A model generated the notes under the pieces. It did no database searches. It was given only the letters and a program-made list of their open reading frames with translations, and was not told the origin of the DNA. This document shows, piece after piece, positions 1,779 to 8,288 of a stretch of 64,000 bases of DNA; position 1 is the first letter of the stretch; each line of letters begins with the position of its first letter. Source of the DNA: Desulforadius tongensis (lineage in GTDB: Bacteria; Bacillota; Desulfotomaculia; Desulfotomaculales; Desulfohalotomaculaceae); NCBI RefSeq assembly GCF_016907915.1, contig NZ_JAFBCW010000014.1, forward strand, positions 1 through 64,000, in the 5' to 3' direction. Position numbers and translations under genes: made by a program.

Positions 1779-4700
1779 TCACATTTTTTCAACAAAAAAG
1801 TGAATTGTCAATTCATCATCCTCATCAGTGATTTCTTCTACAGATAAATCCAACCAACTATCCTCGCTGGCTATAAATACTACCAGATCATCCGTTAATT
1901 CAATATCTGAGATAACAAGTTTTCGATCAACAGTATACAGATCCACCATGTGGGGATTATCTTTATCTTTTGCCTCTAAAACATAGCGCATGTTTTCTTC
2001 AATTGGCTGGTAGATTTCATCCTTATCCACCGTAAGAGTAAACTCTTTACGATCAGGTTCCTCTTTTTGAAAACCAAACGCTTTTTGATAACCCAATAGC
2101 TCCAGTATTTCATCTTCATCAAATCCAAACGACTCAAAATCTTGAATAAACAAATAGCTGAACCATTTTGAAATCGCTTTGTAGTCATACGGACTGCCTG
2201 TATAATGTAACGCTAACGCCTTGGCAAGTCGCCGATTTTCAACGCCACAGGTCATCAAAACACAAGCGACCGGATGGTTAATTCCATATCTAATCATAGG
2301 AGTAAAAAAGCCCGTTAATGGAGGAAGTTCTTCTCCGCGTTCTTTAGCGATTTCATTCAAATAGACCCAAGCAGAATTCACTCCCCAAGGAAGTTTATAA
2401 CCAAATACATCTTCAATATAATTAGTTAAAGCATAAAGATCATCGATCTCATTACCAATCTCAGGGTGATTTGCTATGTCTTTTACAGAACAACCTTCCA
2501 ACCATAGATTCATGATTTCTTTCCAAGAATCATACTCTCTTTTCGGTTTTAGATCATTTAATTGAAAAAGAATAACAGCTATTTCAATTAATAATTTGTT
2601 GATGTCTAAATCTATGGTATTACCGGCTTGAAAAAACAAGTCGTAAAGTTCATCTTCATGCTCTTCCATCACTTGACAATCTCTTGGTGAGAAACCCAAT
2701 CGATAATATTTTTTTCGTTTCGTTTCTGAATCTGCAACTTTGTAAATATACTGTGTTCTTGCTGCAAGCATTTGAGTGCACTGTTCCCAAGCTTTTTCAG
2801 GATTTTTAAGTCTTCTTAGTTGAATATGGAGTAATGAATGGGATAATAGCTCCTGCAGTTGATCTGGTGTCACTTCCTGAATATCCGATTCGGCGGTTAA
2901 AGCAAGTAATTGACTATCCAACACATTTAACCAACCATAGAATGTATCTACTTCCTCATCAGGAAGCCATGAAAAATCTTGATTTGCTAACGCTTCACAT
3001 AACGCATCAAAATCCACTTTTCCATGTATTTTTTTCCATTGGTTTCTAATATATACCAAAACCTTTAGCAGTGCACTGACGATAAAAGCTTCATCCATTC
3101 CTCTCAACAGTTCTTCTCTCTGTTGCTTTTCTTTTTCGATCACTCTCCTTGGTTTTGTTAAATCTACGAAAAAAATCAAATGCCCTTCATTTTCTTTCAT
3201 CCCACGGCCAGCCCGACCGCAAATGTTCCAAAAATCAATGGGGGACACGTGTTGCTCGTAATCTTGCTGCAAACTGTGAATGAGAATGGTACGGATCGGT
3301 AAATTGACTCCCTGAGCCAACGTTGTTGTCGCTATAATTAAACGAACGACTTCATTGCGGGCAAGGTTTTCAAATTTAATACGTAAAGGCTGTGGAAGAT
3401 CCCCATGATGAAGAATCACTTTTTCTTTTAAACACTTGGTTACTAAATGATCTTCCCCTAAAAATTCAACCGCCGCTTTTAAAGCATCTTTAAAAAGTGC
3501 TTTTTTTCCTTTTGACAAGGAAAATTGAAATCCCGGATGTTCCTTTTTCCAAATCTCTAATGTTTTTAATACTTGTTCTCCCAAAGGTTTCACTGAACGT
3601 TTCTGCGCGGTAAAGATCATGATACTTCCTTCTAACGCAAATTTCACCGCTGCTTCAACAATCGCTTCCCGTGAATTATGAGGGTAGAGATTTCTTCTTC
3701 GCGGATTCACACGACGAATATTTCGTGGAATAATAAAATGAGGAACAAAGCAAGGTCGATTATCGAGATATTCCAAACGTCCGCCACTACTCCTCCATTC
3801 CAGTTCCGCCGTAAGAAAGCGAGCCGGTCTCCAATTGGAGGCAATAATCTGTTCCGAAGAGCCGCATAACCATTCGGAAAATTCCTCTGTATTGGGCAGA
3901 ACTGCGGAGATGAATAAATACCTCGGTAGGTTATATTGCAACAGTCGTTTTAACCGTTGAAGAAACATCTCATACTTTAGCCCGCGATGGGAAAAGGAAA
4001 CAATATGTCCTTCATCAACAATCACCAGACCAATTTGATCGATCAGATCGGTATTATATCTTAAAAATGCATCGATTTTTTCCGGAGTTGCCACAACAAT
4101 GCGGCTTTCCTCAACAATCAATCGTTCAAATTGACCAAATTCAAAACCGCCATACAATTCGGTTACACCAAAACCCAGAGGATGAAAAATCTTTTTCAAC
4201 CCTTTTTCTACCTCAGCTGCTAAGGAGCGAAACGGTGCGATATAAACACACAACTTGGTAGGTTCATCCAACAAAAACTGGAGTATCGTTAATTCCGCAA
4301 TGCGTGTTTTCCCAGCACTGGTTGGCATTCTTAATACATAATCCCCCCGCTCGGGTTCAAAAATGTGAGGGACGGCAGTCTTTTGGGAAGGCCACAATTC
4401 AATCACTGATGGCATACTCTTATATTGATGGATAATATATTTTCTTACTAAGTCCCCGTTCTCATGAACCAAAAGGAAATCGAGATTTTTCCAAAGTGAA
4501 TGGTCCCAATACTCCAACAGGATATAACGAGTAAAATAAAAAACCCACCACCAATCCACAAATTGATGTTCGCGGGCTAGATCAATACCAATCTCTAGAA
4601 AGTTTATTGCCTTATCAAACAGGGCTTTTTCTCCACATTTTACATACTCCACATAGTACGACAATGCACGAAAGTACGTTTCCTGAACCAATTCCCATAT

Positions 4701-5264
4701 GATTTCATCTGGATCCGCGTCCTCACTATTCCATTTTTCCTTTAATCCTTCATCCGAAAGATTAATACGCTTTAATTCTAAATATACCAAGGATCGCAGC
4801 ACTTTGATATCCTTCAAAAACAACAGCCGGAGTGCCCGGTATTCCACAGGACTATCAGTGGGAATCTCCAGTTCTTTCATCAGGACATACGAACGCGCAT
4901 AGAAGCCTGCAATGTAATAGGCCAAAGCGGAAAAAGTCAACTGCCGAATCTGTTCGGCCTTATTTTCCGTTTTATTTGAATAGAGAAACTCTAGCACTTC
5001 GGCAGCTTCTTTTAATGCTTCTCTAGCAAGTTCTGCATGTTCTGCAAAGGGCTTCATCAGCACGGCATTCATTAGCAGATAATGGGCTCCCTCAACTAGA
5101 TGTGAAACGGAAAAGTTGTAATCCGGCCACTCTTCTTCCGGCGCATGTAAATTAATGAGCACGGAACGGGAATAAGCTTGGTTTTTACTATTCTTAAAAG
5201 AACGCGATTGAAGAAAACGTTCCACATCTTTTACCAGTTCATCAGCCAATTCGTATGGGATCAT
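1779..5264 (-). CDS. hamB: Hachiman helicase HamB (superfamily 2, Ski2-like)
   Basis: This is a 1161-residue DExH helicase. Residues 1-290 are a helical N-terminal region without a recognised fold. The RecA-like core follows, with Walker A PTSAGKT at 314-320, DEGH at 417-420, an SAV motif III near 447, a TTTLAQGVNLP segment, and motif VI CGRAGRG in the second lobe; a long C-terminal domain of about 450 residues follows. Its ATG overlaps the stop of the upstream HamA gene by four bases (ATGA), so the two are co-translated. A HamA-type protein plus a large SF2 helicase is the definition of Hachiman, where HamB senses aberrant phage DNA and releases the HamA effector. All core motifs look intact, and AT content is higher than in the core genes. 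Confidence 0.85.
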   Translation of the reverse strand: MIPYELADELVKDVERFLQSRSFKNSKNQAYSRSVLINLHAPEEEWPDYNFSVSHLVEGAHYLLMNAVLMKPFAEHAELAREALKEAAEVLEFLYSNKTENKAEQIRQLTFSALAYYIAGFYARSYVLMKELEIPTDSPVEYRALRLLFLKDIKVLRSLVYLELKRINLSDEGLKEKWNSEDADPDEIIWELVQETYFRALSYYVEYVKCGEKALFDKAINFLEIGIDLAREHQFVDWWWVFYFTRYILLEYWDHSLWKNLDFLLVHENGDLVRKYIIHQYKSMPSVIELWPSQKTAVPHIFEPERGDYVLRMPTSAGKTRIAELTILQFLLDEPTKLCVYIAPFRSLAAEVEKGLKKIFHPLGFGVTELYGGFEFGQFERLIVEESRIVVATPEKIDAFLRYNTDLIDQIGLVIVDEGHIVSFSHRGLKYEMFLQRLKRLLQYNLPRYLFISAVLPNTEEFSEWLCGSSEQIIASNWRPARFLTAELEWRSSGGRLEYLDNRPCFVPHFIIPRNIRRVNPRRRNLYPHNSREAIVEAAVKFALEGSIMIFTAQKRSVKPLGEQVLKTLEIWKKEHPGFQFSLSKGKKALFKDALKAAVEFLGEDHLVTKCLKEKVILHHGDLPQPLRIKFENLARNEVVRLIIATTTLAQGVNLPIRTILIHSLQQDYEQHVSPIDFWNICGRAGRGMKENEGHLIFFVDLTKPRRVIEKEKQQREELLRGMDEAFIVSALLKVLVYIRNQWKKIHGKVDFDALCEALANQDFSWLPDEEVDTFYGWLNVLDSQLLALTAESDIQEVTPDQLQELLSHSLLHIQLRRLKNPEKAWEQCTQMLAARTQYIYKVADSETKRKKYYRLGFSPRDCQVMEEHEDELYDLFFQAGNTIDLDINKLLIEIAVILFQLNDLKPKREYDSWKEIMNLWLEGCSVKDIANHPEIGNEIDDLYALTNYIEDVFGYKLPWGVNSAWVYLNEIAKERGEELPPLTGFFTPMIRYGINHPVACVLMTCGVENRRLAKALALHYTGSPYDYKAISKWFSYLFIQDFESFGFDEDEILELLGYQKAFGFQKEEPDRKEFTLTVDKDEIYQPIEENMRYVLEAKDKDNPHMVDLYTVDRKLVISDIELTDDLVVFIASEDSWLDLSVEEITDEDDELTIHFFVEKM

Positions 5265-6076
5265 AGTTCAATCTCCTGTTCAAAAAGATCATTGATAAAA
5301 GGATGTATATCATGCAGTTTAAATTCATAGATGGATAATCCTTCAATGATATTCGATTGATTATGGAGGTTTTGGGTCGGGGTAATATGCCGGTGTTCAC
5401 TAACCAGAAAAATCAGGTACTCTTTACTGTACGGTTTTTTCATAGAAAAATGATTCAAAAAAGAATGTACCTTTCTAGCTAAATCATAATTCCCCCGCTC
5501 TATCAATCTTTCATAAATAAAATTCAATGAGGTTGGTTCAGCCTGACCATAACTTTTCTTAATGCCTTCATAAGCCTCATTTAAAATATTGGCATCATAA
5601 TGCTTTCTTACTTTTGACTCGGCAACACAAATGATACGCTGTTCTCCTTCTTCCACTCCAAATTTAAATCCGATGACATCATCACCCTTCATCGACTGTT
5701 CGGGATTTGGATTGTATCGCAACCGGTAAATCGGTACTTGATAACCTAACTGTTGCTCCATATAGGCACTGGTAACAATTTCTCCAAAATTCCCCATCCG
5801 GGTATCTCTTTTTTTCGGTCTCTTATCACGGTAAACCTCGGCCAGTGTACAATATCCCAACTCTTCCAGCGATTTGGTCAGCAGTTTCCGATCATGGTAA
5901 TGTTCCCAGATATGTTCTGCCAATGGTTTCGCGATCTTTGAGCGACTCCCAGGAAGTTCTGATAGCAAATAGTGTTTAAATTTTATAAATTCCTCTTTAG
6001 ATAAAGTATCCACCCAGTGGTGAATGAAGTTATTTTGATCTGGTAAAACAACATCCATTTGTTCTTTTAGCGCCAT
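5261..6076 (-). CDS. hamA: Hachiman effector HamA (DUF1837 nuclease)
   Basis: This 271-residue protein matches the DUF1837 pattern: GNFGE at 95-99, KGDDVIGF at 130-137, and VAESKVRK with ESK at 153-155. Together these give a PD-(D/E)XK-like D...E-x-K active site. An AAGGTGA ribosome binding site sits about eight bases before the ATG. HamA in studied Hachiman systems is a DNase held inactive by HamB; that role is carried over from the family. The pair reads as one operon, hamA then hamB. No promoter is obvious in the AT-rich leader above 6077. Confidence 0.85.
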   Translation of the reverse strand: MALKEQMDVVLPDQNNFIHHWVDTLSKEEFIKFKHYLLSELPGSRSKIAKPLAEHIWEHYHDRKLLTKSLEELGYCTLAEVYRDKRPKKRDTRMGNFGEIVTSAYMEQQLGYQVPIYRLRYNPNPEQSMKGDDVIGFKFGVEEGEQRIICVAESKVRKHYDANILNEAYEGIKKSYGQAEPTSLNFIYERLIERGNYDLARKVHSFLNHFSMKKPYSKEYLIFLVSEHRHITPTQNLHNQSNIIEGLSIYEFKLHDIHPFINDLFEQEIEL

Positions 6077-6214: not shown

Positions 6215-6502
6215 TTACAAGATAAAAATGCATGTTTTTGCAAAATAATTTTGTAAGTTTTTGCAGCACCCCAACTTACATTTTTGGCAATTAATGGTAG
6301 AGTTCTCAAGCCTGTAACTGCTACCGGTAAATATTAAGAGGTGGCTATGGTGGATTACTCTATCAATGATTGCACTAGTTAGCTTTTCATCGTAAAAAAT
6401 ACCGTTCCACTTGCTGAATTCTAAATTTGTTGTAATAATTAGGCTTTTGCGTTCATAACAGTCTGAAATTACCTGGAACAAAAGCTGTGATCCTGTAAAA
6501 TC
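6215..6502 (-). pseudogene. istB: IS21-family helper ATPase IstB, C-terminal remnant
   Basis: The minus-strand frame encodes GSQLLFQVISDCYERKS, LIITTNLEFSKW and a late HHSHLLIFTGSSYRLENS block, which are the sensor/arginine-finger part of IstB. The Walker A and B parts are missing: the frame is closed by a stop just upstream (about 6505). Only about 85 of the normal roughly 250 residues remain, so it cannot function. It documents a second mobile-element family at the upstream edge of the Hachiman operon. Confidence 0.75.
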
Positions 6503-6644
6503 TCAAATTAAAAGCTTTAAACCACCCTTGTATTCTCAAATTAAATAATCTGCAAATAATTTTAATGCTAAAATAATTTGCGAAAAATTCTCATTTTATT
6601 TTGGTACTAAAATATTGCAACATTTGTTGCAGAAGTGATTACTC

Positions 6645-6806
6645 ATGCAGCAAATTTTTTTAACTTCAGTAACCCCAAAAGAATATTTCGATATGGGTAA
6701 AAAATTTCCCTTTCCACAACCTGAAAGCTGTCTTAATCCTGCCTGCCTTGTACAAATACCACCTAAAAAGCATGGGTTCTACAGCCGCAATTGTATCTAT
6801 AACTAA
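6645..6806 (+). pseudogene. DUF6431-type transposase, N-terminal fragment
   Basis: A 53-codon frame starting MQQIFLTSVTPKEYF and containing FPQPESCLNP, then PPKKHGFYSRNCI, resembles the start of transposases annotated with DUF6431 (a Cys-rich ribbon followed by a GFYSR/GFYER motif). It stops at 6804-6806, where the next gene's sequence begins in another frame. The element was therefore cut by recombination at about 6790-6803. Too short to act. Confidence 0.55.
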
Positions 6807-7278
6807 CCGAATAGGAAAAGACCAATTTAGGTATGTGTTTTCCAGATTAATTGAAGAAGCTAATGATAACTTTTTTATTGATGCTGAAGTTCAAGTTGTA
6901 AATGAAGAAATAGAAATAATTAAAGCATTAAAAAGTTTTGATAAAATTAATACATTAGTAATTACACTACACCCATCTAACCCTAGCAACAGAATAATCT
7001 GGAAAAAAATAGATGAAAGACTAAAGAACATGCGTGCGGAAAAATATCGGGCAGTATATAATAGTAGTGAAGGGTTAATAATTGACCAGTCAGACGAAAC
7101 GTTTGGTCAAATTATGATGGCTAGTGACGGATACGGTAAAGCTGAATTACATGGTTTAAAAAATAATGAAAAAAAAACAGCCAGCACTGAAAAAGTACCT
7201 CAAGATAGTACTTTGAGTGAAGTTAACGTTGCTATTATTGATAAATTTAAGGAAATTTGGAATAGGATGAGAAACTAA
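6748..7278 (+). CDS. Hypothetical soluble protein, probably 5'-truncated by a recombination junction
   Basis: The continuous 176-codon frame begins at TTG 6748 (ATG alternative at 6772). Its first 15-20 codons overlap the transposase fragment in another frame, so the native N-terminus is probably lost. Native-looking sequence begins at about NRIGKDQFRYVFSRL and runs through VITLHPSNPSNRIIW, KKIDERLKNMRAEKYR and MMASDGYGKAEL to a charged C-terminal helix. The layout reminds me of the C-terminal half of DUF4747 proteins, a comparison from memory that I could not check. The stop codon overlaps the start of the membrane-protein gene by one base, so the two were or are co-translated. No function can be assigned; the defence-island context suggests an accessory role. 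Confidence 0.5.
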   Translation: MYKYHLKSMGSTAAIVSITNRIGKDQFRYVFSRLIEEANDNFFIDAEVQVVNEEIEIIKALKSFDKINTLVITLHPSNPSNRIIWKKIDERLKNMRAEKYRAVYNSSEGLIIDQSDETFGQIMMASDGYGKAELHGLKNNEKKTASTEKVPQDSTLSEVNVAIIDKFKEIWNRMRN

Positions 7279-7775
7279 TGAAATTAAAAAACATTTTCCT
7301 CTGCTGGGACTTTATTACAGCAACGGCAATCACTTTAATATTGTGGTTGTTACTCCCAAGCAGTGTTGCAGGTACGTTTGCTAAAGATATATATGGCATT
7401 GCAATACCAGTGCTATCTATTGTTTTTTCTGTATACTTTGCAGCGCTTGCAATAATTATTTCATCTGGAGACAATGATTTCATTAGTTTCTTGGAAGAGG
7501 ATGGTTCCTACACTGAAATAATAAATTCTTTTAAGTATTCCCTTATCATTACCCTTATATCATTAGTTTTTTCAATATTACTTTTTGGCTTTACGTCGTA
7601 TAAGCTGATATTATCAATATTGTCTCAAAACAAGAATCTTTTTGCAGTATTTGTTTTTTTATTTAGTTACTCCTTATTCACTGTATTTAATTCTAGCATG
7701 GACGCTATAACATACGTTAAATATCGTATAAAGTTTACGGAAATTAAGCGACAAAGACAAAGAGATAGTTATTAG
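7278..7775 (+). CDS. Small membrane protein with four predicted helices
   Basis: This 165-residue protein has four hydrophobic stretches, about residues 12-28, 38-62, 88-110 and 120-140. An acidic loop (SSGDNDFISFLEEDGS) lies between the second and third, and the tail is basic (KFTEIKRQRQRD). No family is recognised. Its ATG overlaps the stop of the preceding soluble protein by one base, and a strong terminator follows directly, so the two form a closed bicistronic unit. A soluble sensor with a small membrane partner is the architecture of many abortive-infection pairs, but that is inference from layout alone. Confidence 0.65.
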   Translation: MKLKNIFLCWDFITATAITLILWLLLPSSVAGTFAKDIYGIAIPVLSIVFSVYFAALAIIISSGDNDFISFLEEDGSYTEIINSFKYSLIITLISLVFSILLFGFTSYKLILSILSQNKNLFAVFVFLFSYSLFTVFNSSMDAITYVKYRIKFTEIKRQRQRDSY

Positions 7776-7797
7776 CCCGGACCCTAAGCCGGGCTAA
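7772..7797 (+). terminator. Intrinsic terminator after the bicistronic unit
   Basis: TTAGCCCGG pairs perfectly with CCGGGCTAA across an 8-base loop, followed by ATTTGTCTT. It overlaps the stop codon of the membrane-protein gene. Confidence 0.75.
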
Positions 7798-7935
7798 TTT
7801 GTCTTCTCTTAAATCACTCTCACCATGCAGGAATGTAAGCAAATGATGTCAAAATAATGCGCACAGGAACATTTGTTCCACATTATTGCAAGCAGTTACT
7901 AATATTCCAAAAACAACATTAAGGGATGAATGAGT

Positions 7936-8128
7936 ATGTCCGGCCATATCAAACAAGAAGGAACAGGCAAATAGAAAATAGTAATCGAGGCCGGCAAGGA
8001 CCCGGCCACCGGAAAGCGGAAGCAGAAGACTTAATGGTGAGCTGCTGTCGGAATTAAAGCAGGGCTCTTATGTGGAGCCAAGCAAAGTTACTGTTGGTGA
8101 ATGGCTTGCCACTAGGCCCCTGGAATAA
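7936..8128 (+). pseudogene. Tyrosine integrase, N-terminal arm-binding remnant
   Basis: The frames encode MSGHIKQEGTGK, a stop, then KIVIEAGKDPATGKRKQ, another stop and an internal deletion, and finally ELLSELKQGSYVEPSKVTV with GEWLAT before a last stop. This is the AP2-like plus SAM-like N-terminus of phage/ICE tyrosine recombinases (normally MSGHIR-x-RGKGSW... GTYVEP-x-KMTVGEYL). The catalytic domain is gone. It lies 85 bases from the 3' end of tRNA-Val, the usual position of an integrase at a tRNA attachment site, and so marks an old island boundary. The rest of 7800-8170 shows no gene. Confidence 0.75.
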
Positions 8129-8173
8129 GGCGAAAACATCAAAATAATTCAATCGAGTACCAAAATAAAACAA

Positions 8174-8213: not shown

Positions 8214-8288
8214 TGGTGGGCGGGAGAAGAATTGAACTTCCGACCTCTTGCGTGTCAAGCAAGCGTTCTCCCACTGAACTACCCGCCC
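8214..8288 (-). tRNA. tRNA-Val (GAC)
   Basis: This 75-base cloverleaf has a perfect 7-bp acceptor stem (GGGCGGG/CCCGCCC), D-arm GTTCAGTGGGAGAAC, anticodon stem CTTGC/GCAAG around loop TTGACAC with anticodon GAC, T-loop TTCAATT and an encoded CCA. Its 3' end faces the integrase remnant, so it is a plausible past attachment site. Confidence 0.95.

Follow-up and report, generated by a model that had tools for sequence, protein, structure and literature searches.

The window analysed here is a stretch of 64,000 nucleotides of Desulforadius tongensis DNA. It contains, on the forward strand, a soluble open reading frame (6748-7278, 176 amino acids, TTG start) followed by an intact gene for a 165-residue four-helix membrane protein, a putative RexB-like effector (7278-7775, ATG start). 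The TAA stop codon of the soluble frame and the ATG of the membrane gene have base 7278 in common, and an intrinsic terminator with a terminator-like stem of 10 pairs lies at the end of the unit on the same strand (7771-7798). Chance alone would be expected to produce 1.5 terminator-like sites in the region; five were detected. The layout described in the original prediction, namely a two-gene unit with a one-base overlap, a 165-residue four-helix membrane protein and a closing terminator, is present in the sequence in full. When 6799-7775 was shuffled 2000 times, no open run exceeded 136 codons, compared with 165 for the membrane frame. On comparative evidence both frames are real genes, because homologues exist elsewhere.

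The soluble frame matches the Pfam family DUF4747 (PF15931) with an E-value of 1e-8 and 35.4 bits, against a curated cut-off of 27. Residues 43-152 align to profile positions 142-251 of 257, and the match fails to qualify as a full-length domain. Intact homologues score similarly against the same profile (P0001, 33.6 bits; P0003, 37.3 bits; both above the cut-off of 27). Homology to the family is confined to positions 6799-7278 of the frame, which encode the C-terminal approximately 158 residues of a DUF4747 protein, a putative RexA-like sensor. This part is 42-45% identical to the intact 284-residue protein of locus L006 and aligns with it from about residue 112 onwards. A reading of the soluble protein as a type II dehydroquinase was dropped, as its E-value of 0.12 falls below the cut-off. 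PADLOC gave no match for either the soluble or the membrane protein of the window. The earlier statement that neither product matches a known family is therefore overturned for the soluble protein and stands for the membrane protein, to which no library gives a name. Assignment of either protein to a housekeeping family, which had been named beforehand as grounds for rejecting the prediction, did not occur.

The first 17-18 codons or so of the called soluble frame (6748-6798, forward strand) derive from the insertion element, in a frame different from that of its transposase, and are not part of DUF4747; their codon-position GC content is unlike that of the DUF4747 part. They belong to the left part of an insertion element on the forward strand (6494-6798), truncated at 6798, in which the start of the transposase frame occupies about 6646-6798. 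Copies that are 94% identical (G000:C16:49252-49556) and 85% identical (G000:C22:10071-10362) lie elsewhere in the genome, and both alignments stop at 6798. A further copy is found at G000:C4:103585-103826. All of the genome copies examined are partial or decayed; the transposase begins MQQIFLTSVTPKEYF..., and no Pfam or NCBIfam model matched its N-terminal 53 residues. Because insertion-element DNA runs to 6798 and DUF4747 coding begins at about 6799, the sensor gene is, as judged from its sequence, cut by a mobile element at the 6798/6799 junction, with its own start and approximately 115-120 N-terminal residues (about 40% of DUF4747) gone. The suspicion that the soluble gene had lost its N-terminus is borne out by this comparison with intact homologues. 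It is improbable that the truncated fusion frame still functions, for example by regulating the intact membrane protein in shortened form. The frame has no interruption after the TTG or after an internal ATG and still overlaps the membrane gene by one base, but its start region is out-of-frame insertion-element DNA, the N-terminal residues of intact homologues are absent, and promoter-like sites in the region occur at chance level only.

The membrane protein shares 38-47% identity with the partner proteins encoded beside four other DUF4747 genes and 26% with that of a fifth. An AlphaFold2 model built from a four-sequence alignment has four long helices and a mean pLDDT of 85.9. The best-conserved stretch, SVYFAALAIIISSGDxxFIxFLExxGxY, comprises the last part of helix 2 together with the loop that follows. 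A basic C-terminus (KRQRQRD) points to a cytoplasmic position for both termini and the loop between helices 2 and 3. Matches to CASP and presenilin lay far below the cut-off and are attributable to hydrophobicity.

The unit lies in a defence and mobile-element setting, as originally described. The neighbouring Hachiman system is confirmed on the reverse strand, with HamA (5261-6076; PADLOC E 1.7e-42 and Pfam HamA) divergent from the unit and the HamB helicase at 1779-5264 (PADLOC E 1.2e-202). Both Hachiman frames (1779-6076) are open and the system looks intact, unlike the adjoining elements. In addition to the element at 6494-6798, there is an IS3-type remnant (946-1678, rve_3) and an IS21 IstB remnant on the reverse strand (6218-6481). 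An N-terminal integrase-like fragment, read by eye, lies at about 7936-8130 beside a tRNA-Val(GAC) gene (8214-8288, reverse strand) that marks the edge of the variable island. This integrase-like remnant (KDPATGKRKQK / NGELLSELKQGSYVEPSKVTVGEWLATRPLE) is interrupted by stops and a frame change, and the piece of it that was tested had no Pfam match. A junction between a dacF-type gene and tRNA-Val(GAC) is common to four relatives (L058-L061), and the genes beyond the tRNA differ in each; the junction is likely an integration hot spot. Since the relatives share the dacF-type gene and tRNA-Val and then diverge, Hachiman, the DUF4747 pair, the insertion-element remnants and the integrase-like fragment are placed in a variable stretch at the tRNA, as expected of an old integrated island. 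The pair has a GC content of 31%, Hachiman 39%, and the remaining window from 8344 on 44%.

Twelve other loci carry a soluble gene of 280-330 codons directly upstream of a membrane gene of 160-210 codons. Their hosts are bacteria of the same phylum, cyanobacteria and Armatimonadota, together with a phage contig. A search started from DUF4747 gave L004, L006, L007, L019, L020, L021 and L033, and a search with the membrane profile only gave L026, L027 and L031, with L029 and L030 as weaker matches. The soluble gene comes first in 12/12 loci, the pairing is one-to-one, and the stop-to-start distance ranges from -35 to +80 bp. The same gene order is seen in L043, a truncated locus that runs off its contig. 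The membrane profile alone is unspecific at E-values around 1e-6, because its matches to an ABC-permease-like gene (L028) and probably to L032 are due to chance; L029 and L030 (E about 1e-5) are accordingly weak members, included chiefly for their gene order. A chance Pfam match to a sugar epimerase-like gene (L008) was also discarded. Intact homologues are present in L006, L019 (a plasmid of Picosynechococcus PCC 8807), L020 and L033, and the two genes are adjacent in every locus found, so that the refuting case named beforehand, homologues that never adjoin, did not arise.

The pair is rare. Of 398 genomes of the phylum, 3 pass the DUF4747 cut-off, Desulforadius tongensis included, and the profile of the clade itself finds a match in Desulforadius tongensis only among 113 genomes of the class. 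A single-sequence search of genome contigs gave no match, and an alignment-based search gave two loci. The phage collection held no relative of the intact L006 sensor and one relative of the L004 sensor (30%). Among viral structures, the best match of the membrane model is A0A8S5S8H0 (TM 0.70, E 3.5e-3) and the second-best match of the soluble model is A0A8S5S8L2 (E 7.6e-7), both proteins of Siphoviridae sp. ctylc9. That both models match proteins of a single phage may be taken as an independent sign of pairing.

The surroundings of the relatives include both mobile and defence genes. Three of them appear prophage-like from their gene content: L045 (the L007 pair), with RecT and an SPP1-type portal; L046 (the L004 pair), with a portal and a minor-tail-like protein; and L049 (the L030 pair), with RecT and a serine recombinase. 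L033 and L043 are sequences of viral contigs. In L051 (the L029 pair) a complete type I restriction-modification operon lies directly upstream; a small metalloprotease-like gene, named by eye, is located between this operon and the pair (L051:9540-17099), and the arrangement resembles the layouts of restriction-modification and immune operons described for CapKS. The neighbourhood of L019 contains dndD/dndE, that of L048 (the L027 pair) contains PDC-S37, NERD-helicase and DUF262-like genes within about 10 kb, and that of L044 (the L006 pair) contains PDC-M24B. No obvious defence genes were seen near L020 and L021.

Broken sensor genes recur among the relatives. A frame change in the sensor with a membrane gene that is still open is seen at L021:9980-10824, which is from a metagenome assembly, and at L043:5001-5860, and the DUF4747 sensor gene of L009 has three stops. 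A nonsense mutation has been published for a Rhodococcus homologue of Butters gp30 (PMC7542560). These cases could be assembly errors, which could explain some of them, or a real tendency toward loss of the sensor.

Prophage-encoded antiphage pairs of a cytoplasmic and a four-pass membrane protein have been described as Sbash gp30/gp31, CarolAnn gp44/gp43 and Butters gp30/gp31, and the authors reported weak HHpred matches to DUF4747 and drew the likeness to RexAB (PMC6426596, PMC6426606, PMC7542560). A 2026 paper places operons of a 'DUF4747/CarolAnn prophage system' behind CapK/CapS (PMC13373217). The combination of DUF4747 with a four-pass membrane protein is thus an already named kind of phage defence (PMC13373217, PMC6426606, PMC6426596; for Butters, PMC7542560), so that the description of the unit as unrecognised does not hold. 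As in the DUF4747/CarolAnn system, the soluble protein of the window is DUF4747, the partner lies downstream, and the setting is one of prophage and defence genes, restriction-modification genes included (PMC13373217). The window copy differs in lacking the N-terminal 40% or so of DUF4747. Its upstream neighbours are Hachiman and mobile remnants, whereas those operons follow CapK/CapS; no CapK/CapS-like gene was recognised here by a survey that used no CapK model. Sbash and CarolAnn share with the window an overlapping soluble and four-pass membrane gene in that order, and are prophage-borne abortive-infection systems. In contrast, their sensors have 370-372 residues and no detectable sequence similarity to the DUF4747 clade, and the published link to DUF4747 is a weak HHpred match.

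Sequence profiles do not connect the clade to these systems. With hhalign, the soluble profile gave probabilities below 1% against RexA, CarolAnn gp44 and Butters gp30, as did the membrane profile against CarolAnn gp43 and Butters gp31, and the match of the membrane profile to RexB was marginal (E 0.0056, probability 6.6%). The RexA and RexB models of PADLOC and Pfam found no match in the DUF4747 clade, whereas lambda RexA and RexB do match their own models. Structural comparison gave a different picture. In a Foldseek search of the PDB with a model of the intact L020 soluble protein, CENP-N/Chl4 took rank 1 and others, lambda RexA (8twq) ranks 2 and 4, and RdgC rank 8 (probability 1.00), with TM-scores of 0.2-0.3 and E-values of about 2e-3. 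CENP-N is the human counterpart of Chl4. Residues 18-145 of the model are mostly at pLDDT 60-78. The match to a RexA/RdgC/CENP-N fold group is only a hint, because the model is poor (mean pLDDT 50). RdgC, Iml3 and Chl4 are the structural relatives named for RexA in its crystal paper, and non-specific DNA binding is known for RexA, Sbash gp30 and CarolAnn gp44 (PMC11077077). In P. putida RexABpp, RexApp binds DNA, also non-specifically, and RexBpp is a four-helix, membrane-damaging protein (PMC12894663).

Since the profiles do not connect, apart from the marginal match to RexB, the RexA-like reading rests on layout and fold. Lambda RexAB and RexABpp have the same layout as the window pair, Foldseek suggests a RexA-like fold, and RexB, too, is a small membrane protein of four helices. 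The missing profile homology to RexA/RexB and to CarolAnn/Sbash, together with a fold match that depends on a low-confidence model, would also suit a separate two-component membrane defence that merely resembles RexAB, in which the four-helix protein does not form a channel and DUF4747 responds to a cue that is not DNA. We consider this unlikely, as the top PDB matches belong to the RexA/RdgC/CENP-N fold group, layout and size are those of RexAB, and DUF4747 has already been grouped with CarolAnn (PMC13373217). The Butters pair offers another model: gp30/gp31 have the same soluble and four-pass layout, are co-dependent, and were modelled with the soluble protein as the antiviral effector, kept at the membrane by its partner until infection (PMC7542560). 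Such a mechanism is very improbable for the DUF4747 pair, whose profiles match neither Butters gp30 nor Butters gp31; moreover, the growth-stopping part of P. putida RexABpp is the membrane protein (PMC12894663).

Overall, we favour, with a probability of about 0.7, the reading of the unit as a decayed RexAB-like abortive-infection pair, carried by a mobile island next to tRNA-Val and Hachiman. What is observed is that the soluble protein belongs to DUF4747, that its N-terminus is lost and where the junction lies, that the two genes adjoin in all relatives found, and that a membrane fold is predicted; the sensor and effector roles, DNA binding and depolarisation are inferred. An intact DUF4747 protein would most likely be a cytoplasmic, dimeric DNA-binding sensor of RexA/RdgC-like fold. 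On encountering phage replication structures or a protein of the phage during infection, it would activate its membrane partner, probably via the conserved loop that joins helices 2 and 3 on the cytoplasmic side (SSGDxxFIxFLExxGxY), and the activated partner would permeabilise or depolarise the inner membrane, so that the infected cell is stopped and the infection aborted. The abortive-infection layout of sensor plus membrane effector first suggested for this unit was a good guess, with the roles themselves putative.

Both genes are required for defence in Sbash and CarolAnn (PMC6426596, PMC6426606). Because the window sensor lacks its N-terminal part as well, the window copy has very probably lost its function. 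This agrees with the earlier remark that the copy may be inactive: the sensor has neither its N-terminal part nor its natural start, and the membrane gene retains an open frame. The pair belongs, in broken form, to an already known kind and is not an unrecognised system. As a fossil it has little functional value, and serves chiefly as a pointer to intact relatives. It also points to a gap in the defence catalogue, in that no PADLOC 2.0 model matches either protein of the pair or close relatives. It is possible, if rather doubtful, that DUF4747 pairs form a separate and widespread bacterial branch of immunity missed by PADLOC 2.0, with a RexA/RdgC-fold sensor and a four-helix effector, carried on chromosomes, plasmids and prophages, in which the sensor tends to be lost and the membrane gene kept. 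The pairs of L006, L019, L020 and L033 provide intact material for asking whether DUF4747 pairs are RexAB-like.
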